Below, piece after piece: positions 46,311 through 64,000 of a stretch of DNA of 64,000 nt. Location: positions 126,565-190,564 of the forward strand of contig NZ_KB904691.1 of the NCBI RefSeq assembly GCF_000380165.1, in the 5' to 3' direction. This stretch comes from Wenjunlia vitaminophila DSM 41686 (GTDB lineage: Bacteria; Actinomycetota; Actinomycetes; Streptomycetales; Streptomycetaceae). The first letter of the stretch is position 1. Each line of letters starts with the position of its first letter. Below the pieces are notes generated by a model that did no database searches, was not told where the DNA came from, and worked only from the letters and a program-made list of their open reading frames with translations. A program made the position numbers and the translations under genes.

Positions 46311-46979
46311 TCAGGCGGGTGTTGAGGTCCTGGGACGGGGCAGGAACAGCGCCTCCGCGCCGACCGGCCGGAACCCCGCCGCCTGGAAGGCGCGGACGCT
46401 GCGCGCGTTGCCCGCCGCCTGCTGGGACCACACCGGTTCCCCGGCCGGGACCAGGTGGCGCGCCGCGGTCGCCAGGGCCCGGCCGAGGCCGCGGTGGCGC
46501 GCCGTCTCCTCCACCTCGACCGCGGCTTCCCAGCGCCCGGCCACGCCCCGGCCCAGCACCAGCAGCCCGCCTTCGGCGGCCCAGACCGCCACCTCGTCGC
46601 GGCGCTGCCGGGCCCGCACCACCCGGGGGTGCTCCCGGTCCACGATCCGACGCAGCCCGATCGGCGGGTCCCCCGGCAGCGCGGTGGCCACCGTCAGCAG
46701 GTCGATGGTGTCGGTGGTCCGTCCGGTCCTTTCGAGCAACGCGGTGAGGAACCTGGTGTTCATCGTGGCGGCGAGTTCGTCGCAGTCCAGGGCGGCCAGG
46801 GTCGCCCGCACCCAGGCCGGGTCCTCGTCGGTGAACACCACCGAGTGAGCCGTGAAGGCGATCACCCCGGCGTCGCGCCGGTTGGGCTGCGGGACCACGG
46901 TCACCGCCCCGTCAGCCGGCGGGAACCGCCCCGTGGCCGCGGCGTCGAGCAGCCCCGCCAGAGTCCGTTCCGTGTCCAT
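46311..46979 (-). CDS. GNAT-family N-acetyltransferase 2
   Basis: 222 aa. The GNAT core is in the C-terminal half: VEVEETARHRGLGRALATAA (about 165-184) as motif A and QQAAGNARSVRAFQAAGFRPV as motif B. The first about 100 residues (PADGAVTVVPQPNRRDAGVI and following) form an extra domain seen in many actinobacterial acetyltransferases. It probably forms an operon with the next leftward GNAT gene. ATG 46979 has GGGGGTGG upstream. Acceptor unknown. Confidence 0.85.
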   Translation of the reverse strand: MDTERTLAGLLDAAATGRFPPADGAVTVVPQPNRRDAGVIAFTAHSVVFTDEDPAWVRATLAALDCDELAATMNTRFLTALLERTGRTTDTIDLLTVATALPGDPPIGLRRIVDREHPRVVRARQRRDEVAVWAAEGGLLVLGRGVAGRWEAAVEVEETARHRGLGRALATAARHLVPAGEPVWSQQAAGNARSVRAFQAAGFRPVGAEALFLPRPRTSTPA

Positions 46980-47282
46980 GACGCCACCCCCGTACCTCAA
47001 CTGCGATCATGCTCGCACGCCGCCGCGGAACGGCCGCCGCCGGGTCCTGCGGGCCCTGACGGCCGGGGAACGAGGGCCGGCCGGTGTGCCCGGACGGCCC
47101 CGGCCGGCGTCAACGAAGCATGCGGGGCGCACCACCGGGTACCTCACAGGGGCACACGAGCCGACGGCCGCCCGCCGGGAGCGCGGGACCGGCCGGAGAC
47201 GCCCGCCCGCCCCGAGAACGGCACGGCCCTTCCGGAGGCGTCCCCCGGGCCGGCGGTGGCCGCCGGAGGTAAGGAAGACACC
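46980..47282. other. Divergent intergenic region, GNAT 2 - PEP synthase
   Basis: 303 bp of GC-rich DNA. It ends with GGAGGTAAGGAAG as the ribosome binding site of ppsA. I see no strong inverted repeat and no convincing small gene. Confidence 0.45.
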
Positions 47283-49733
47283 ATGGCTGAGCAGCACTCC
47301 GGTCACGATCTGGTCAGAGCGTTCGAGGACGTCTCGGCGCGGGACACGGCCGTGGTCGGCGGCAAGAACGCCTCCCTCGGGGAGATGATCCGGCACCTCG
47401 CCTCGCAGGGCGTCCCGGTCCCGGGCGGATTCGCCACCACCGCGCGCGCCTACCGGGAGTTCCTGGAGGAGAGCGGCCTGCGCGACCGGGTCAGCGAGCA
47501 GATCGACGCCCTCCACCGGGGCGCCGAACTGGCCGAGGTGGGCGCGGAGATCCGACGGGCGTTCCGGGAGGCCGAACTCCCACGACGGCTCGCCGACGCC
47601 ATCGGGGACGCCTACCGGGAACTCGGCGCCACCCTGCGCCGGGAGGACCCGGACGTGGCGGTGCGCTCCAGTGCCACCGCGGAGGACCTGCCCGAAGCGA
47701 GCTTCGCCGGCCAGCAGGAGACCTTCCTCGGCATCAGCGGTGAGGCCGCGCTGCTGGACGCCTGCAAGCGCTGCTACGCGTCGCTGTTCACCGACCGGGC
47801 GATCAGCTACCGGGAACACCAGGGCGTCGACCACCTCCAGGTGGCGCTCTCCGTCGGCGTGCAGCGGATGGTCCGCTCCGACAAGGCCGGGGCCGGGGTG
47901 GCGTTCACCCTGGACACCGACAGCGGCTTCCCGCGCGTGGTCCTGGTCAACGCCTCCTGGGGGCTGGGCGAGTCCGTCGTCTCGGGCACCGTCGACCCGG
48001 ACGAGTACCAGGTGTTCAAACCCCTGCTCGACCGGACGGACCTCACTCCGGTGATCTCCAAGACGGCCGGCAGCAAGGAAACCAAGGTCGTGTACTCCAG
48101 GTCCGGGGACGGCCCCACCGCGACCGTGGGGACCACCCCCCACGAACAGGCCGCGTACGTCCTGGACGACCAGGAGATCCTGCAACTGGCCAGGTGGGCC
48201 GTGGCCATCGAGGAGCACTACGGCCGGCCGATGGACATCGAGTGGGCCAAGGACGGGTTCACCGGGGACCTGCACGTCGTCCAGGCGCGGCCGGAGACCG
48301 TGCAGGCCCGCAAGGAGGCCGGCACCCTGCGCTCCTACGAGCTGAAGGAACACGGCACACGACTGGTCGGCGGCCTCGCGGTCGGCGACGCCATCGCCGC
48401 AGGGAAGGTCTGCAACCTGCGCAGCGCCGACGAGATCGGCCGCTTCCAGGACGGCGCCGTGCTCGTCACCGGCGCCACCGACCCGGACTGGGAACCGATC
48501 ATGAAACGGGCGGCGGCCATCGTCACCGACCACGGCGGTCGCACCTCACACGCCGCCATCGTCAGCCGCGAGCTCGGGGTGGCGGCGGTCGTCGGCACCG
48601 GGAACGCCACGGCCGCCCTGACCGACGGGCAGGAGGTCACCGTCTGCTGCGCCGAGGGGGAGGAAGGGGTCGTGTACGGGGGCGTCCTCGACTTCGACGA
48701 GCGCGAGATCGATCTCTCCGAGGTCCCGTCCACGGCCACCGGGGTCATGCTGAACATCGCCAATCCCTCGGCCGCCTTCCGGTGGTGGCGGCTTCCCGCG
48801 GACGGCGTCGGCCTGGCCCGGATGGAGTTCATCGTCAACAACCACATCAAGATCCACCCGATGGCCCTGGTCCACTTCGACGACCTGCGCGACGCCGCCG
48901 CCCGGGACCTGATCGCCGAGCTGACCCACGGCTACGACGACAAGGCGGAGTTCTTCGTCGAGCGGCTGGCCCACGGGATGGCCCGCATCGCCGCGGCCTG
49001 GTGGCCGAAGCCGGTCATCGTCCGGATGAGCGACTTCAAGACCAACGAGTACGCCAAGCTGATCGGTGGGCAGGAGTTCGAACCCCCGGAGGAGAACCCC
49101 ATGCTCGGCTGGCGGGGTGCCAGCCGCTACTACAGCGAGGGCTACCGGGCCGGTTTCGGCCTCGAGTGCCGCGCCGTCCACCGGGTCAGGAACACCATGG
49201 GTCTGACCAACACGGTGGTGATGATCCCGTTCTGCCGCACCCTGGGGGAAGCGGACCGGGTCCTGGCGACCATGGCCGAGCACGGCCTGGTCCGGGGGCG
49301 CGACGGGCTGGAGACCTTCGTGATGGCGGAGATCCCCTCCAACATCATCCTCGCCGACCAGTTCGCCGACCGCTTCGACGGCTTCTCCATCGGGAGCAAC
49401 GACCTCACCCAGCTCACCATCGGCGTCGACCGGGACTCCGAACAGTTGTCGGAGTTGTTCGACGAGCGCGACCCGTCGGTGATCCGCAGCATCGGGACGC
49501 TCATCGCCGAAGCGCACGGCAAGGGCCGCAAGGTCGGCCTGTGCGGCCAGCGCCCGAGCGACGACCCGGACTTCGCCCGCCTCCTGGTGGGCGCCGGCAT
49601 CGACACCGTCTCGGTCACCCCGGACAGCTTCCTTCGGGTGAAGGAGAACGTCGCCGCGGCCGAACGGGGAGCGGGGCGGTCGGTCAGTGGGCCCGGAGGC
49701 GGTCCGGGGCGTCGTCCAGCGGCAGGTGGCTGA
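47283..49733 (+). CDS. ppsA: Phosphoenolpyruvate synthase
   Basis: 816 aa. ATP-grasp N-terminal domain (VVGGKNASLGEMIRHLASQG about 25-44; VRSSATAEDLPEASFAGQQE), swivelling His domain with GGRTSHAAIVSRELGV (catalytic His about residue 422), and the TIM-barrel PEP domain with GFSIGSNDLTQLTIGVDRD and KVGLCGQRPS. It converts pyruvate, ATP and water to PEP, AMP and phosphate, feeding gluconeogenesis from substrates such as lactate. The C-terminal about 20 residues (SVSGPGGGPGRRPAAGG) look non-native and are antisense to the end of the convergent mreB gene, with a 50-bp overlap. ATG 47283 has a strong GGAGG. Confidence 0.95.
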   Translation: MAEQHSGHDLVRAFEDVSARDTAVVGGKNASLGEMIRHLASQGVPVPGGFATTARAYREFLEESGLRDRVSEQIDALHRGAELAEVGAEIRRAFREAELPRRLADAIGDAYRELGATLRREDPDVAVRSSATAEDLPEASFAGQQETFLGISGEAALLDACKRCYASLFTDRAISYREHQGVDHLQVALSVGVQRMVRSDKAGAGVAFTLDTDSGFPRVVLVNASWGLGESVVSGTVDPDEYQVFKPLLDRTDLTPVISKTAGSKETKVVYSRSGDGPTATVGTTPHEQAAYVLDDQEILQLARWAVAIEEHYGRPMDIEWAKDGFTGDLHVVQARPETVQARKEAGTLRSYELKEHGTRLVGGLAVGDAIAAGKVCNLRSADEIGRFQDGAVLVTGATDPDWEPIMKRAAAIVTDHGGRTSHAAIVSRELGVAAVVGTGNATAALTDGQEVTVCCAEGEEGVVYGGVLDFDEREIDLSEVPSTATGVMLNIANPSAAFRWWRLPADGVGLARMEFIVNNHIKIHPMALVHFDDLRDAAARDLIAELTHGYDDKAEFFVERLAHGMARIAAAWWPKPVIVRMSDFKTNEYAKLIGGQEFEPPEENPMLGWRGASRYYSEGYRAGFGLECRAVHRVRNTMGLTNTVVMIPFCRTLGEADRVLATMAEHGLVRGRDGLETFVMAEIPSNIILADQFADRFDGFSIGSNDLTQLTIGVDRDSEQLSELFDERDPSVIRSIGTLIAEAHGKGRKVGLCGQRPSDDPDFARLLVGAGIDTVSVTPDSFLRVKENVAAAERGAGRSVSGPGGGPGRRPAAGG

Positions 49734-53033: not shown

Positions 53034-54128
53034 ATGACCACCATGTGGACCGCGGGCGCGGCGGTCGCCCAGGACCGGGTCGTGAGCCCGGGAACGGTGA
53101 TCGTGGACGACGACGGGGTGATCGAGGCGGTGGTCCCCCGACGGGTCACCGGCGCCCACGACCTCGGCAGTCGATCGCTGCTGGTGCCCGGGGCCGTGGA
53201 CCTGCACGGGGATGCAGCGGAACGATTCGCCGAGCCGAGGCCGGGCGCCCGCATGCCCCTCACCGTCGCCGTGCGGGCCCTGGACCAGCGTCTCGCGGCA
53301 GCCGGTGTGACCACCGCGTGCACGGCGCTCAGCCTCACCAGCGAGAAGGACGGGCTGCACGACCGGGCCAGCGTCGAGGCGCTCGGCCACGAGCTGCGCG
53401 GACTCGCCGACCCACGGGTGGACCACCGGCTGCACCTGCGGGTGCTCGCCGCGGGTGACGAGAACGTCGTCGCGGCCGAACACTTACTCCGCCGCGGCGG
53501 GGTGGCCGTGCTCTCGGTGCTGGCCGGTTCGCCGCTCGGGTGGCCCACCGCCACCGACTCCTGTGGGTGCGCGGACCGCGCGGAACCGGCACCGGTGACC
53601 ACCGCGGACCACGACGGGGAGGCGACGCCCGACACCTCGCACGAGGAGCGGCTGGAACGCCTCGCCGCCGCGGCCCGGCGTGCCCACGTGCCCCTGGCCT
53701 GGCACCACCCGGAGTCGCCGGAGACCATCGCCAGGGCGGCGGCGCTCGGCACCACGATCGCCCAGTTCCCAGCCACCGTGCACACCGCCCGCGCGGCGGG
53801 CCCCGCGGGGATGGTGGTCGCCATGGGCGCGCCCAGCCTGCTGCTGCGGCGGGTCACCCGGGGGGCGCTCAGTGCCCGGCAGGCACTGGCCGCGTCCACC
53901 CTCGACGTTCTGGTCAGCGACTACTACCCGGAGGCGCTGTGGCCCGCGGTGCTGGACACCGCGCTGCCGCTGCCGGAGGCGGTGGACCTGATCACTGATG
54001 CCCCGGCCCGGGCGCTCCGGCTCACCGACCGGGGTGCGCTCGCGCCCGGCAGGCGCGGCGACCTGGTGGCGCTCCGGCCGGACGGCACGGTCCGCCGCAC
54101 GGTGGTGGGCGGCCGGGTGGTGCACTGA
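53034..54128 (+). CDS. phnM: PhnM-like amidohydrolase (orphan)
   Basis: 364 aa. Metal-site motifs LVPGAVDLHGDAAERF (about 50-65, with HxD as HGD), a His-rich PLAWHHPESPE (about 222-232), and the PhnM-specific VVAMGAPSLLL (about 262-272) and SDYYPEALWPAV (about 295-306). PhnM hydrolyses the triphosphate of ribosyl methylphosphonate in C-P lyase pathways; no other phn gene is present here, so the actual substrate is uncertain. Insertion around 165-210 carries a Cys pair (CGC) and charged residues not typical of E. coli PhnM. ATG 53034 has GGTGAGG upstream. Co-directional with the next two genes. Confidence 0.8.
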   Translation: MTTMWTAGAAVAQDRVVSPGTVIVDDDGVIEAVVPRRVTGAHDLGSRSLLVPGAVDLHGDAAERFAEPRPGARMPLTVAVRALDQRLAAAGVTTACTALSLTSEKDGLHDRASVEALGHELRGLADPRVDHRLHLRVLAAGDENVVAAEHLLRRGGVAVLSVLAGSPLGWPTATDSCGCADRAEPAPVTTADHDGEATPDTSHEERLERLAAAARRAHVPLAWHHPESPETIARAAALGTTIAQFPATVHTARAAGPAGMVVAMGAPSLLLRRVTRGALSARQALAASTLDVLVSDYYPEALWPAVLDTALPLPEAVDLITDAPARALRLTDRGALAPGRRGDLVALRPDGTVRRTVVGGRVVH

Positions 54129-54300
54129 GGGCGGCCCGCCGGCCGGCCAGGGCCACCGCCGGTTCCGCCTCGCTCCGGGCTCCGGCACCACGGGCCACCC
54201 GTGCGGCCCACCCGGGCGGCCAGGTTTCCGGCACGCCCCGGCCGGTTACCCGACCCCCATACGGGGCTGTCATGCCCAGCGTCACGACGTCAGGACCCCT

Positions 54301-55257
54301 ATGACCTCGTTCGGCTACTTCCTTTCCAGTGAGACATCCACTCCGCGGGACCTGCTGGAGCAGGCCAGGATGGCCGAGCAGGCAGGATTCGAGGCACTGT
54401 GGATCTCCGACCACTACCACCCGTGGACCAGGACCCAGGGCGAGAGCCCGTTCGTCTGGTCGGTGATCGGTGGGCTCTCCCAGGTCACCTCGCTCCCCGT
54501 GGAGACCGCGGTGACCTGTCCCACGGTGCGCACCCACCCTGCGGTGGTGGCACAGGCCGCGGCCACCTGCGGCGTGATGCTCGAAGGATCGTTCCGCCTC
54601 GGCATCGGCAGCGGCGAGGCCCTGAACGAGCACGTGGTGGGCGGGCCCTGGCCACCGGCGTCGATGCGCCTGGAGATGGTCGAGGAGGCCGTGACGGTGA
54701 TCCGTCGCCTCTTCTCCGGCGAGGAGGTCACCCACCACGGCAAGCACTACACCGTGGAGAACGCGCAGCTCCACACGCTTCCCGAGGAGCCGGTGCCGAT
54801 CGACATCTCCGGCCTGGGCTCCAGCGCCGTCGCGCTGGCCGGACGGATCGGGGACGGTCTGATCACCATGGCACCGGACGCGGACCTGGTCGCCCGGTAC
54901 CGGAAGAGCGGCGGCAAGGGAAAGCCGGTACACGGCGGCACCAAGGTCTGCTGGGGCACCGACCGGGACGAGGCGGTGCGCACCGCGCACCGGATCTGGC
55001 CCAACGACCACCTCCCGGGCGAGCTCCCCCAGGTGCTGCCCACGCCGCAACACATCGAGCAGGCGTGCACCATGGTCACCGAGGAGACCGTGGCCGAGTC
55101 GGTGGTCTGCGGGGACGACGTGGACGAACACCTCGCCTGGCTCCAGTCGTTCACCGACGCCGGGTTCGACACCGTCTACATCAACCAGATCGGTCCGGAC
55201 CACCGCGGCTTCTTCGACTTCTACCGCACCAAGATCCTCCCCCAGCTCACCCTCTGA
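54301..55257 (+). CDS. F420-dependent LLM-class oxidoreductase (G6PDH-like, TIGR03557 type)
   Basis: 318 aa luciferase-like TIM barrel. ISDHYHPWTRTQGESPF (about 37-53) and FRLGIGSGEALNEHV (about 98-112) are the substrate and F420 contacts of the F420-dependent glucose-6-phosphate dehydrogenase branch. It probably oxidises an alcohol or sugar phosphate with reduction of F420, or the reverse; true Fgd identity cannot be fixed. The presence of the gene implies that the cell makes coenzyme F420. ATG 54301 has only a weak GGACC upstream; 64 bp to the next gene. Confidence 0.9.
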   Translation: MTSFGYFLSSETSTPRDLLEQARMAEQAGFEALWISDHYHPWTRTQGESPFVWSVIGGLSQVTSLPVETAVTCPTVRTHPAVVAQAAATCGVMLEGSFRLGIGSGEALNEHVVGGPWPPASMRLEMVEEAVTVIRRLFSGEEVTHHGKHYTVENAQLHTLPEEPVPIDISGLGSSAVALAGRIGDGLITMAPDADLVARYRKSGGKGKPVHGGTKVCWGTDRDEAVRTAHRIWPNDHLPGELPQVLPTPQHIEQACTMVTEETVAESVVCGDDVDEHLAWLQSFTDAGFDTVYINQIGPDHRGFFDFYRTKILPQLTL

Positions 55258-55321
55258 GGCGGCGCCCGGCCACGGCCAGCCCTCCCCCGGCCCGGGGCCG
55301 ACCGCACCAGGAACCCGCCGC

Positions 55322-56968
55322 ATGAACGCCAAGGTTTCCGACCACGTGCTGCGCCGCCTGCGCGCATGGGACATCGACCACGTGTTCGCCCATCCGGGAG
55401 AGGGCCTCAAGGGGTTCGCCGCCGCCTGGGTACGCGCCGGAAACCGCCCCCACCTGGTGCGGGCCGGGACCGGGGCCACAGCCGTGCTCGAGGCCGTCGG
55501 CCATGCCCGGTTCTCCGGGAAGACGGGGGTGTGCGCGGCGAGTCGCGCACCCGGCCCGGTCCACCCGCTGGACGGCCTGTACGACGCGGCACTCGCCCGG
55601 GTGCCGGTCGTCGTGCTGCTCGGGCGGGCCCGCGGCGACACGCCGGACGGCGCCGGTGACCGCGCCTCGGACCTGCTGGCGCTCCCGGAAGGCGTCGCCC
55701 CGGTGCGCTGCCGGACGGTGACCGCTCCGGAGCGGGTGCCCGACGTCATCGACGAGGCGGTGCGCACCGCCCGCGAGCACCGTGGCCCCACCGCGGTGCT
55801 GGTGGACGCGGAGATGCAGGAACGCGACGCGGCCCCCGGCTGGCCGGAGCCCCCCGGGTGTCCGTGGAGCCAACGGCCCCGGGGGACACCGGCAGCCGCC
55901 GCGGGACAGGACCTGGAGAACGCCGCTGAGGTGCTCAACTCGGGGCGGCGGGTGGCGATCCTCGTCGGACCGGACGCCCGGGGTGCCGCCGAGGAGGTGC
56001 GCCGGACCGCCGAGACGCTGGGGGCGGGCGTAGCCAAGACCCTGCTCGGCAAGGACGCGCTCTCCGACGTCCTCCCCTGGGTCACCGGCACCGCCGGCCC
56101 GGCGGGGACCCGGCCGAGCCGGGAGCTGCTCCGGGACTGCGACACGCTGCTCACCATCGGCGCCACCGCCCCCGAGGACCGGTTCCCCGCCGGGTGCGGC
56201 CCGGGGCGTGAGGTACGGATCTGCCGTGCCCCAGGTCCCCCCGGGGCACGGCACCCGCACGGCGTGGACCTGACCGGGGACGTCCGCGTGACCCTGGCCG
56301 CCCTGCTGCCGCTGCTGCGCCGCACGGACGACCGGCTCTGGCAGCACGCGGTGGAGCGGAACGCGGAGCGGTGGCGGACAGCCCTGGAACGCCGCGCCAC
56401 GGCCCCCGCACACCCGCTCGACCCGGAACACCCGGTGCACGCCCTGGACCCGCTGCTCCCCGCGGACGCGGTGGTCTGTGCCGACTCCGGCCCGGCCGCC
56501 ACCTGGTACGCCCACCACCTCCGGGTCCGCGGCGCCCTGCGGGGCTGCGTCGTCGTAACCCGGTCAGTCGCGGGCTCGGTGGTGCCCTGCGCCATCGGCG
56601 CGAAGTTCGCGGAGCCTGACCGCCCTGCCATCGCCCTGGTCAGCGACGTCACCGGGCACCCGGACGGCCTCACCGAGCTGGTCACCGCGGCGCGGTGCTA
56701 CCGGGAGTGGTTCGACCCCCGGCTAGTCGTCGCGGTCTGGAACGGCCACGGCACCGACCCGGCCGGCGGCGGGGGGCACACTCGGCGTGGCACGCCGGGG
56801 TCCGGGCGGGCACGCTGGCTCCCCGGGGCGTCGTACGCGGAGTTCGCCCGGTCCCTCGGGCTCTACGGCACCCGGGTGGAGGAGCCCGGCGACGTGCGGA
56901 GGGCGTGGCTGGGCGCCCTGCGTGCGGACCGTCCGACGGTGGTGGAGTTCCTCCGAGAACGCCGCTGA
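55322..56968 (+). CDS. Degenerate thiamine-diphosphate-enzyme homologue (pseudoenzyme)
   Basis: 548 aa with the three-domain layout of pyruvate oxidase/acetolactate synthase: Pyr domain about 1-165, middle domain about 195-330, PP domain about 370-545. Fold-level matches include VFAHPGEGLKGF (21-32), HPLDGLYDAAL (81-91), GAGVAKTLLGKDALSD and TADSG-like VVCADSGPAATWYAHHL. Catalytic parts are gone: where family members have RHEE with the Glu that activates TPP, this reads RAGTGATAVLEA (47-58); where they have GDG near 440, it reads SDVTGHPDG (441-449); and the paired Asn further on are WNGHG (473-477). It should not bind TPP and cannot use it for catalysis. The open frame, GC3 bias and a 5'-AGG(A/G)-type site show it is not a decayed gene; it is probably a retained pseudoenzyme. 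ATG 55322. Confidence 0.85.
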   Translation: MNAKVSDHVLRRLRAWDIDHVFAHPGEGLKGFAAAWVRAGNRPHLVRAGTGATAVLEAVGHARFSGKTGVCAASRAPGPVHPLDGLYDAALARVPVVVLLGRARGDTPDGAGDRASDLLALPEGVAPVRCRTVTAPERVPDVIDEAVRTAREHRGPTAVLVDAEMQERDAAPGWPEPPGCPWSQRPRGTPAAAAGQDLENAAEVLNSGRRVAILVGPDARGAAEEVRRTAETLGAGVAKTLLGKDALSDVLPWVTGTAGPAGTRPSRELLRDCDTLLTIGATAPEDRFPAGCGPGREVRICRAPGPPGARHPHGVDLTGDVRVTLAALLPLLRRTDDRLWQHAVERNAERWRTALERRATAPAHPLDPEHPVHALDPLLPADAVVCADSGPAATWYAHHLRVRGALRGCVVVTRSVAGSVVPCAIGAKFAEPDRPAIALVSDVTGHPDGLTELVTAARCYREWFDPRLVVAVWNGHGTDPAGGGGHTRRGTPGSGRARWLPGASYAEFARSLGLYGTRVEEPGDVRRAWLGALRADRPTVVEFLRERR

Positions 56969-59813: not shown

Positions 59814-61292
59814 TCAGGTGCGGTGGTGCTCCTCCACCATCACCCGCACGGTCCGCAGCCCGGCGCTGGCCGCGTCGGGGACGTTCATGCCGGCCGCGAC
59901 GCCGGTGCGCAGGTACTCAAGCACCGGCTCGGTGAGCCGTTCGCCGGGCAGGGCCACCGGAATGCCGGGTGGGTACGGGGTGAGCATCTCCGCCGCGACC
60001 CGGCCCACCGCCCGGGAGACCGGGACGTCCTCGACGTCCCCGAAGAACGCGTCCCGGGGCAGGTGGACCTGCTCCACGCGCAGTTCCTCGGGCGTCGGGA
60101 CGGCCACCGTGGGCGTCGGCCCCAGCTCGTCCGCGTGCGCCACCAGATCGGCCAACGCGGTCACCAACGCGTCGGCGGTCTCCTCGTCGTCGGCGTGGGT
60201 GAGCTGGGCGCTGATCCGGCGGTGGTCACTCAGGTGGAGGTCCACGTGGTGCCGTTCGCGCAGCCAGTCACCGGCCCGGTAGCCGGCGATGCCGAGCGCG
60301 GTGATGTCGATGACCGTCGGCAGCGGGTCCAGGTCGGCGGCACGGCCGGGGCCCACGTACTCCGGTCGGCCGTCCACGTGCAGCCCGTCGATCCCCTTGA
60401 CGACCTCGTGCACCCGCCCGGCCAACCCCAGCGCGCCGCCCAGCAGTTCCTCGCCGTGCAGCGCCATCTGCCGCCGCCAGCCGTCCAGGCCCGCGTAGAT
60501 CAGCACCGAGGGGCTGGTGGTGCCCAGCAGGTCGGCCCGGGACATTAGGACGGCGGGCTCGAGCAGGTCGCCCTGGAGGTGGAACACCGAGCCCTGTTCC
60601 AGACCGCTGCCCATCTTGTGGATGCTGGTCACGCAGACGTCGGCGCCCGCGTCCATCGCCCACACGGGCAGGTCGGGGTGGAACGGCAGGTGGGCGCCCC
60701 ACGCCTCGTCCACGATCAGCGGTCGGGAACGGCGGTGGCACACCTCGGCGATGCCGGCGAGGTCGGCGCAGCACCCGTACGGCGTGGGGCTCGTCACCAG
60801 GGCTCCCCGGGCGTCGGGGTGCTCCTGCCACCGCGCCTCGTAGGAGGCCGCCGACGGCGGATGTGCCAGATGGCGCTCGGGGTCCCACTGGGGCTCCACC
60901 CAGATCGGCACCACCCCCGAGAGGATCAGGCCGGACACCACCGACTTGTGGGCGTCACGGCCCACCAACAGCTTCTGGTGCGGTCCGGCCGCGGACAGCA
61001 TGGCGGCCTTGACCGACAGGGAACTGCCGCAGGTCGAGAAGAAGGTGTGCTCCGCGTGGACGGCGTCGGCCATCAACTCCTCGGCCCGCCGCAGCAGCCC
61101 CTGCCCGGAGAGCCGGTCGTCGAGGCCCGCGGTGGCCAGCACGTCGCTGTGGAACACCGCGTCACCCAGAACCCGGCGCACCGAGGGGTCGGCGCCTCGC
61201 GCCTGTTTGTGGCCGGGCGGGGTGAAACCCAGCTCGTGACGTCGGTGGTATCGGTCGAGTGCTTCCAGAATCGGCGCCGATGTGTGATCCAT
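59814..61292 (-). CDS. Orn/Lys/Arg-family PLP decarboxylase
   Basis: 492 aa, fold-type I, of the shorter Gram-positive (SpeA/YaaO-like) kind without the N-terminal wing domain of E. coli LdcI. PLP site: SIHKMGSGLEQ (Lys 226 as Schiff base), DEAWGAHLPFHP (195-206, Asp binding the pyridine N), STCGSSLSVKAAM (86-98) phosphate loop, plus the C-terminal domain with EMLTPYPPGIPVALPGE. It decarboxylates a basic amino acid to a polyamine; which one is not determined. ATG 61292 follows GGAAGG and the protein starts directly with the fold, so no extended disordered N-terminal tail exists. It lies 74 bp downstream of the encapsulin gene on the same strand. Confidence 0.92.
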   Translation of the reverse strand: MDHTSAPILEALDRYHRRHELGFTPPGHKQARGADPSVRRVLGDAVFHSDVLATAGLDDRLSGQGLLRRAEELMADAVHAEHTFFSTCGSSLSVKAAMLSAAGPHQKLLVGRDAHKSVVSGLILSGVVPIWVEPQWDPERHLAHPPSAASYEARWQEHPDARGALVTSPTPYGCCADLAGIAEVCHRRSRPLIVDEAWGAHLPFHPDLPVWAMDAGADVCVTSIHKMGSGLEQGSVFHLQGDLLEPAVLMSRADLLGTTSPSVLIYAGLDGWRRQMALHGEELLGGALGLAGRVHEVVKGIDGLHVDGRPEYVGPGRAADLDPLPTVIDITALGIAGYRAGDWLRERHHVDLHLSDHRRISAQLTHADDEETADALVTALADLVAHADELGPTPTVAVPTPEELRVEQVHLPRDAFFGDVEDVPVSRAVGRVAAEMLTPYPPGIPVALPGERLTEPVLEYLRTGVAAGMNVPDAASAGLRTVRVMVEEHHRT

Positions 61293-61366
61293 GCCTGGAC
61301 GCCTTCCCCGAAGGGGTGCACAAATGCCTTCGACCCACCACGAGCCCGGTCCCCGCCCGGCCCCCG

Positions 61367-62788
61367 TCACGTCGCGCTGGAGATCTCCACGTTCTCCAGA
61401 ATTCCCAGGGCATCGGGAACCAGAATGGCGGCCGAGTAATAGGCGGACACCAGATAGGAGATGATGGCCTTCTCGTTGATACCCATGAAGCGCACGGAAA
61501 GACCGGGCTCGTATTCGTCGGGAAGTCCGGTCTGGTGCAGTCCGATGACGCCCTGGTCGTCCTCGCCGGTACGCAGGACAAGAATGGAGCTCGTCTGCTC
61601 CTTGGTGACCGGGATCTTGTTGCACGGCAGGATCGGAATACCGCGCCAGGCGGGAACGGTGGTGTCGTGCAGCGCCACGCTGTCCGGGTAGAGGCCCCGC
61701 TTGTTGCACTCCCGGCCGAACGCCGCGATGGTGCGCGGGTGCGCGAGGAAGACGCGGGAGCTGCGCCGCCGGCTGAGCAGCTCGTCGAGGTCGTCGGGGG
61801 TGGGCGGGCCGGAGCGGGGCTGGACGCGCTGGGAGTAGTCGCAGTTGTGGAGCAGCCCGAACTCGCGGTTGTTGATCAGCTCGTGCTCCTGGCGCTCCCG
61901 CAGCGCCTCGATGGTCAGGCGGAGCTGCTGCTCGAGCTGGTTCATCGGCTCGTTGTAGAGGTCGGCGACCCGGCTGTGGACGCGCAGGATGGTCTGCGCC
62001 ACGCTGAGCTCGTACTCCCGGGGTGACGGCTCGTAGTCGACGAAGGTGCCGGCGAGCTGCACCTCTCCCTCGTGTCCCGAGGTGAGGGCGATGTCCGCCT
62101 CACCTCGGCGGTTGGTCGGCTGCCGCGCTCCGGCCCGGTAGTCCTCGATGTGCGCCCGCAACTGCGGGGACCCGCCCGCCACCTCCTCGAACGACTGCCG
62201 GTCGAGCCGGAGCAGGCTCCCCGCCGTCTCCGCGCGGACGGTGAACGGCCAGCTCTGACCGGGGTCAGTGATCACCTGGGCCCCGAAGTGGGCGCCGTCG
62301 GCGAGGACGTCCAGGACGGTATCGTCACCGTACTTGCCCTCGCCGAGCTGCTGCGTCCGGCCGTGGACGATCAGGTAGACCTGGTCCGCCGGCTGCCCGG
62401 CCTGCGCGATCACCTCTCCGGCCCGGAAGTCCTGCTGCACGAAGCGGTCCGCGAGGGCGGTGAGCACCGCGGTGTCCTCGAAGTCCCGTAACACCGCGAT
62501 CTCACGGAGCTCGTCCGGGATCACCCGGACCTCGGCGCCGGTCTGCACGAAGGTGATCCGGCCGTCGCCGAGGGTGTAGCTGAGCCGACGGTTCACCCGG
62601 TAGGCACCGCCCCTCGCCTCCACCCAGGGAAGCACGCGCAACAGCCAGCGGGAGGTGATTCCCTGCATTTGCGGCACGGACTTGGTGGTCGTCGCCAGAT
62701 TTCGCGCAGCGGCCGTACCGAGACTGAGCTGCGGTTGGCCGCTTTCCCCTCCATTGACGGGGGGATTCGAAAGAGCATCGACCGACAT
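61367..62788 (-). CDS. Family 2B encapsulin nanocompartment shell protein
   Basis: 473 aa. HK97-type shell protein of encapsulin family 2B: N-terminal arm about 1-45, P-domain start [20 protein letters not shown] (46-65), an inserted cyclic-nucleotide-binding-like domain about 100-218 ([25 protein letters not shown]), then the shell part resuming around [20 protein letters not shown] (231-250) and the A-domain end [20 protein letters not shown] with [20 protein letters not shown]. Such proteins form 60-subunit icosahedral shells holding a cargo enzyme. Known family 2 cargoes (terpene cyclase, polyprenyl transferase, cysteine desulfurase, xylulose kinase) are not nearby; the following gene is a PLP decarboxylase. 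ATG 62788 has AGGAGGG upstream. Confidence 0.93.
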
Positions 62789-62900: not shown

Positions 62901-64000
62901 TTATGTCGTTTTCGGCCTGATATCCAGTCCGTAGCGCCGGGCCGCGTCGCGGACGCTTTCCGGCTTGGCCTGGCCGCGCCGGGCGAGGGTGGCCAGGGCC
63001 GCGAGCGTGATGGACTCGGCGTCCACCCGGAAGTGCCGGCGCGCGGCGGTGCGGGTGTCGGAGAGCCCGAAGCCGTCGGTGCCCAACGACGTCCAGTCCT
63101 GCTCCACCCAGGGCCTGATCTGGTCCGGCACCGCCCGCATCCAGTCGCTGACCGCGACCACGGGGCCGGGGGCGCCGTGCAGGGCACGGGTCACGTACGG
63201 CACCCGTTCGCTGCCCTCCCGGCCCTCCGCGGCGTCCGCGAGGTTCTCCGCGTCGCAGGCGAGCGCGTCCCGGCGGAGCTCGGTCCAGGAGGTGGCCGAC
63301 CACACGTCCGCGGACACGTCCCACTCCTCGGCCAGCAGCCGTTGCGCGGCCAGGGCCCAGTGCATCGCGGTGCCCGAGGCCAGCAGTTGCAGCCTGGGCG
63401 CCCGGTCCGAGGTGCCCACGGGCGCGGGCGCGTACCGGTAGAGCCCGCGCACGATGCCCTCGCTCACCCCGTCCGCCTCCGGCATGGGGGGCTGCGCCTT
63501 CGGCTCGTTGTAGACGGTGAGGTAGTAGAAGACGTCCTCGCCCTCGGGCCCGAACATGCGGCGCAGCCCGTCGCGGACGATCACCCCGAGCTCGAAGGCG
63601 AAGGCGGGGTCGTAGGACACGCAGGCCGGGTTGGTCGAGGCGGTGAGCTGGGAGTGCCCGTCGGCGTGCTGGAGGCCCTCACCGGTCATGGTGGTGCGGC
63701 CGGCGGTGGCCCCGATCAGGAATCCCCGACCCAGTTGGTCGGCGAGCGCCCACATCTGGTCGGCGGTGCGCTGCCAGCCGAACATCGAGTAGAAGATGTA
63801 GAACGGGATCACCGGCTCGCCGTGGGTGGCGTACGCGGTGGCCGCGGCGGTGAGGGAGGCCATGGAGCCGGCCTCGGTGATCCCCTCGTTGAGGATCTGA
63901 CCGTCGGCGGCTTCCTTGTAGTACAGGAGCTGGTCCCGGTCCACCGGGTCGTAGGTCTGTCCCAGCGGGGAGTAGATGCCGGCGCTGGGGAAGAGCGACT
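62901..64000 (-). CDS. aceE: Pyruvate dehydrogenase E1 (homodimeric), C-terminal part
   Basis: About 366 codons of the 3' end; the gene continues beyond the right edge. Recognisable segments are [19 protein letters not shown] at the window edge, [59 protein letters not shown] and [20 protein letters not shown], which match the C-terminal half of AceE-type E1. It decarboxylates pyruvate with TPP and passes the acetyl unit to E2 lipoyl groups. lpdA at the left edge is 61 kb away and may supply E3. The stop is followed by a hairpin. Confidence 0.96.

Follow-up and report, generated by a model that had tools for sequence, protein, structure and literature searches.

Does an open reading frame that has the domain layout of a thiamine diphosphate (ThDP) enzyme, and little of its cofactor site, encode a protein that is still in use, or a gene on its way to being lost? 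This question is raised by a gene in a 64,000-nucleotide stretch of Wenjunlia vitaminophila DSM 41686 DNA, the whole of which is called the window here. A first-pass annotation had described its product as a retained pseudoenzyme, perhaps a regulator or a partner of an active paralogue or of the adjacent F420 oxidoreductase.

A ThDP-enzyme-like gene and its family

55309..55312, plus strand: AGGA, 9 nt ahead of the start codon, a plausible Shine-Dalgarno sequence (sequence reading)
55322..56968, plus strand: gene for a ThDP-enzyme-like protein of 548 amino acids with its cofactor site erased (frame, Pfam, NCBIfam, alignment)

The frame starts with ATG and runs for 548 codons without a stop. 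Its product matches the Pfam models PF02776, PF00205 and PF02775 (TPP_enzyme_N, _M and _C), each above the cut-off, so that all three ThDP-enzyme domains (PYR, central and PP) are present and the pyruvate oxidase/acetolactate synthase layout attributed to it from the sequence is borne out. The top NCBIfam model is the actinobacterial PRK08273 (NF006129), 'thiamine pyrophosphate-requiring protein', which covers residues 1-543; unlike the members of this family, about 50% identical to it where intact, the window protein remains below the curated threshold (482.9 against 724 bits) and has neither the ThDP site nor the C-terminal tail, roughly 50 residues long, that is typical of the family. Among solved structures its best relatives are pyruvate oxidases. 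PoxB of Escherichia coli (3EY9/3EYA) and POX of Lactobacillus plantarum (1POX/1Y9D) have, by sequence, the same three-domain layout, whereas the window protein carries Gly for Glu59, SDV for GDG and Gly for the metal-binding Asn; the E59Q variant of the L. plantarum enzyme was among the PDB entries matched. An AlphaFold model computed from three sequences was poor (pLDDT 49.5), and the Foldseek search made with it, in which pyruvate oxidase ranked first with a TM score of only 0.3, was taken as uninformative.

Selective erosion of the cofactor site

55394..55405, plus strand: residues 25-28, PGEG for PGDG; H24/E27 common only to the window protein and two degenerate relatives (alignment, signature scan)
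55466..55480, plus strand: residues 49-53, GTGAT for RHEEM; G51 at the position of the catalytic Glu59 of L. plantarum pyruvate oxidase (alignment)
55907..56356, plus strand: residues 196-345, FAD-type central domain, well preserved as far as about residue 280; GQG changed to GPD, GLLGT to GPAGT, DIDP to CRAP (Pfam, alignment)
56642..56665, plus strand: residues 441-448, SDVTGHPD for GDGAMQMN, the Asp kept (alignment)
56738..56815, plus strand: residues 473-498, WNG and a Gly/Arg/Pro-rich linker for xNN-x-DLNQVTWEMR; second Asn (metal ligand) lost (alignment)

Strong matches to the window protein were retrieved from 106 of 200 family genomes, and motifs were inspected in 51 aligned and 15 weaker-scoring orthologues, some 40 other matches lying outside this inspection. 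All motifs are intact in 51/51 of the former and in 14/15 of the latter, the remaining one having intact HEE, PGDG and GDG and an Asn motif that falls outside the match. Alignment with the 51 intact sequences confirmed the replaced HEE, GDG and Asn-pair motifs as first quoted, residues 474-475 reading NG in the window protein and NN in the orthologues. A local double or compensated frameshift, or a sequencing error, was ruled out, no other frame fitting the intact consensus in the altered segments.

Across the 308 columns that are at least 95% invariant in the 51 intact orthologues, the window protein keeps 55% of the residues. Retention is uneven along the protein (chi-square p = 8e-5), and the losses concentrate in the ThDP motifs, where 19/74 invariant residues are kept against 150/216 elsewhere (Fisher p = 9e-11; eight segments picked from known ThDP motifs, with limits set by hand after the alignment had been seen). 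The claim that the entire cofactor site is gone therefore holds as a selective erasure and not to the letter, since D442 (the Asp of GDG) and N474 (the first Asn) are still present besides the other conserved motif positions. These two residues, together with the fact that some members of the superfamily work without the Glu, are what could be said for an active site that is unusual and still uses ThDP. Glyoxylate carboligase lacks the catalytic Glu, which is consequently not essential across the ThDP superfamily, and the statement that the altered positions are essential throughout the family has to be relaxed for this residue alone. On the other hand, the metal Asn, the GDG glycines, the DLNQVTWEMR loop, the PYR-side Glu, Gln114 and the SGPG motif are all changed, and we regard continued ThDP catalysis as highly improbable. 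The disappearance of the metal Asn and of the whole loop that follows it is a stronger argument for a dead ThDP site than that of the Glu. That the window protein has lost the use of ThDP is our firm conclusion, and it is a homologue without catalytic residues, as expected of a pseudoenzyme.

Half-erased second copies in two related genomes

A scan for the signature H[PA]GEG[IL][NK]G returned, among 346 family genomes, only the window's genome and two cousins of another genus, the latter being the only true relatives that it retrieved; it was found in 0/393 genomes of the genus of G009, a set that overlaps the 346. Both cousins hold an intact and a degenerate copy: Streptomyces humicola RB6PN25 (G008) has its intact L020 and its degenerate L031 on a single contig, separated by about 26 kb, and the Streptomycetaceae metagenome-assembled genome CP_BM_RX_5 (G022) carries intact L022 and degenerate L032 (L032/L069). 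The degenerate copies share with the window protein H24, E27 and the loss of GDG, Asn pair, loop and tail, reading GDH/GEE and NG/NE at the two motifs. Unlike the window protein, they keep the Glu motif (RHEE) and most FAD-domain residues and occur beside an intact copy. In L031 and L032 the PYR half retains 23/31 and 22/31 motif residues and the PP half only 17/43 and 19/43, the S. humicola value contrasting with 191/216 elsewhere in the protein (p = 4e-11).

The FAD-type domain (201-320) of these copies conserves 86-100% of the invariant residues. Over residues 201-280 the window protein keeps 84-85% of the invariant positions and the cousins 89-100%, which would suit a repurposed enzyme or binding protein that has given up ThDP and uses something else, such as FAD or a nucleotide bound in the central domain. 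However, the central-domain motifs of the window protein are broken as well (GQG to GPD, DIDP to CRAP, with 48% retention at 281-320), and we consider such repurposing improbable.

The window's genome differs in its complement of paralogues. A close intact orthologue of the window protein was not found there; the nearest intact-motif paralogue is only 38% identical, and the other PF02775 proteins are all encoded elsewhere in the genome, so that the proposed partnership with a close active paralogue finds no candidate. A contig scan with this single protein retrieved no close relatives, and viral contigs gave no match. A homologue in another genome (G016:C11:898400-899638, 36% identical to the query) has one in-frame TAG and is a possible pseudogene.

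A common origin of the window gene and the cousins' degenerate copies is likely from the sequence comparisons. FastTree joins the query to L031/L032 with support of 0.995, and a mixture-model tree groups them in 49% of bootstraps, the AU test (p = 0.287) neither rejecting nor requiring the clade. Of the derived residues, query and cousins have 9/26 in common and an outgroup pair 3/31 (p = 0.027). Another fast lineage, L033, shares 11/36, however, so the residues common to query and cousins could also be convergent. L033 itself (L033:8939-11332, in G009) is a PRK08273 homologue that evolves fast, keeps its motifs intact and carries residues that its kin lack; next to it are genes for an aminotransferase and a beta-lactamase-fold protein, which the degenerate L031 copy has as neighbours too.

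Decay or retention

The alternative that weighs most on the interpretation is a decaying gene, whose role has been lost and whose constraint is fading without a stop or frameshift having appeared yet, the high GC content masking decay because stops are rare. The uninterrupted frame put forward in the first-pass annotation is real and says little in this respect, since at such GC content the antisense strand is open as well: a frame at 54022-56685 (minus strand) runs through 887 codons and covers most of this region. In addition, the gene is absent from G001, the only congener, and the erosion extends to the FAD-domain motifs. The terminal branch of the query is extremely long (2.86 changes per site), its GARP content is 0.465 against a mean of 0.348, and GC1/GC2 are high (0.81/0.59); these features of the sequence point to relaxed constraint.

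The uneven pattern of retention speaks against decay. So does a neutral simulation: run to 56% identity under three equilibrium GC values, it kept the frame free of stops in only 0.3%, 3% and 10% of cases, indels being uncounted. Codon usage resembles that of active neighbours, with a GC content at fourfold sites of 0.908, like neighbouring genes, over a rough intergenic value of 0.72, and with 0 TTA codons. The cousins provide the clearest case. Maximum-likelihood estimates for the degenerate pair are dN 0.070 and dS 0.89, and for the intact pair of the same genomes dN 0.031 and dS 1.59; with dN/dS of about 0.08, the degenerate copies are clearly under strong, if somewhat relaxed, purifying selection. 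In a codon branch model of 11 sequences omega was 0.082 on the cousin branches, where omega = 1 costs 143 log units (2 delta lnL = 287), and 0.076 on the query branch, where it costs 63 (2 delta lnL = 125), a value that is soft owing to saturation at synonymous sites and a shift in composition; a stem estimate of 7.4 lay at the search bound and was set aside. The dN/dS check that had been suggested thus speaks plainly for the cousins, whereas the window gene, whose degenerate form is a single sequence in our data, rejects neutrality only within the model.

Decay is accordingly a possible reading that we hold to be unlikely, and retention of the window protein as a folded, selected protein is rather likely. 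The explanation that we favour, and judge probable, is that of a pseudoenzyme, a lineage-specific Streptomycetaceae descendant of the PRK08273 FAD/ThDP 'pyruvate-oxidase-like' proteins in which ThDP-Mg binding is gone and the folded protein is kept. The description as a retained pseudoenzyme is thereby upheld as regards the selective loss of the site and the purifying selection on the cousins; for the window gene retention depends on the model, and a non-catalytic function, including a role as partner or regulator, is what we infer.

Gene neighbourhood

54295..55257, plus strand: TIGR03557 family F420-dependent LLM oxidoreductase, adjacent upstream, 64 nt from the ThDP-like gene (NCBIfam)

Relatives of the LLM gene lie directly beside the intact enzyme in four genomes (G003, G004, G016 and G027), a more distant one (46%) adjoins it in S. 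humicola, and in seven others (G002, G006, G007, G009, G038, G045 and G048) an LLM relative is found about 1 to 30 kb from the PRK08273-like gene. In G016 the pair is followed by a homologue of the window's decarboxylase-like gene (59814-61709); apart from this gene and the LLM gene, the comparison revealed little conserved order. No LLM gene was found in this comparison near the degenerate L031 or L032. The association of the LLM gene is with the cluster. The suggested partnership with the F420 oxidoreductase may fit the proximity of its gene to that of the intact enzyme in many relatives, but neither degenerate copy of the cousins has it as a neighbour.

The window holds further genes of note. 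A Family 2B encapsulin shell protein (61367-62788, minus strand; NF041163, 783 bits against a cut-off of 400) is encoded next to the decarboxylase-like gene, which is weakly matched to Orn/Lys decarboxylases. At the window edge (62901-63944, minus strand) lies the C-terminal part of a homologue of the homodimeric pyruvate dehydrogenase E1 (aceE), another ThDP enzyme, and 46455-49733 encodes a PEP synthase that is extended at its N terminus by about 280 residues.

A proposed stepwise history and its implications

We infer a history in two steps. In the first, a second copy would have shed the C-terminal tail and the part of the ThDP site that belongs to the PP domain. With the Glu-bearing PYR half and the FAD-type domain still in place, it may have joined the intact copy in a mixed oligomer as a subunit without catalytic activity. 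The lineage of the window lacks an intact copy; there, erosion would next have reached the PYR half and some of the FAD-domain motifs, reducing the protein to a scaffold or a binding protein whose ligand may be a product of its gene cluster. In the pyruvate oxidase group ThDP is bound at a subunit interface, between a PYR domain and the PP domain of a second subunit, and the dead PP half and mostly kept PYR half of the cousins would suit a mixed oligomer for this reason. The changes Q114R and N84G in the PYR half weaken such a reading of the cousins' pattern.

A two-stage family of ThDP pseudoenzymes in the Streptomycetaceae, in which a subunit with dead PP and live PYR halves could pair with an intact paralogue and, once that paralogue is missing, a fully cofactor-free protein has its own role, is put forward as a tentative and rather doubtful proposal. 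If it were true, a dimer of a dead-PP subunit and the intact paralogue would have one working and one dead site. We did not find in the open-access literature a paper on a cofactor-free pseudoenzyme of the pyruvate oxidase-type ThDP group. Genes of this kind are likely annotated, wrongly, as thiamine-pyrophosphate enzymes. With intact, half-erased and nearly fully erased forms in one bacterial family, both the partner hypothesis and the order in which the site was lost can be put to a direct test.
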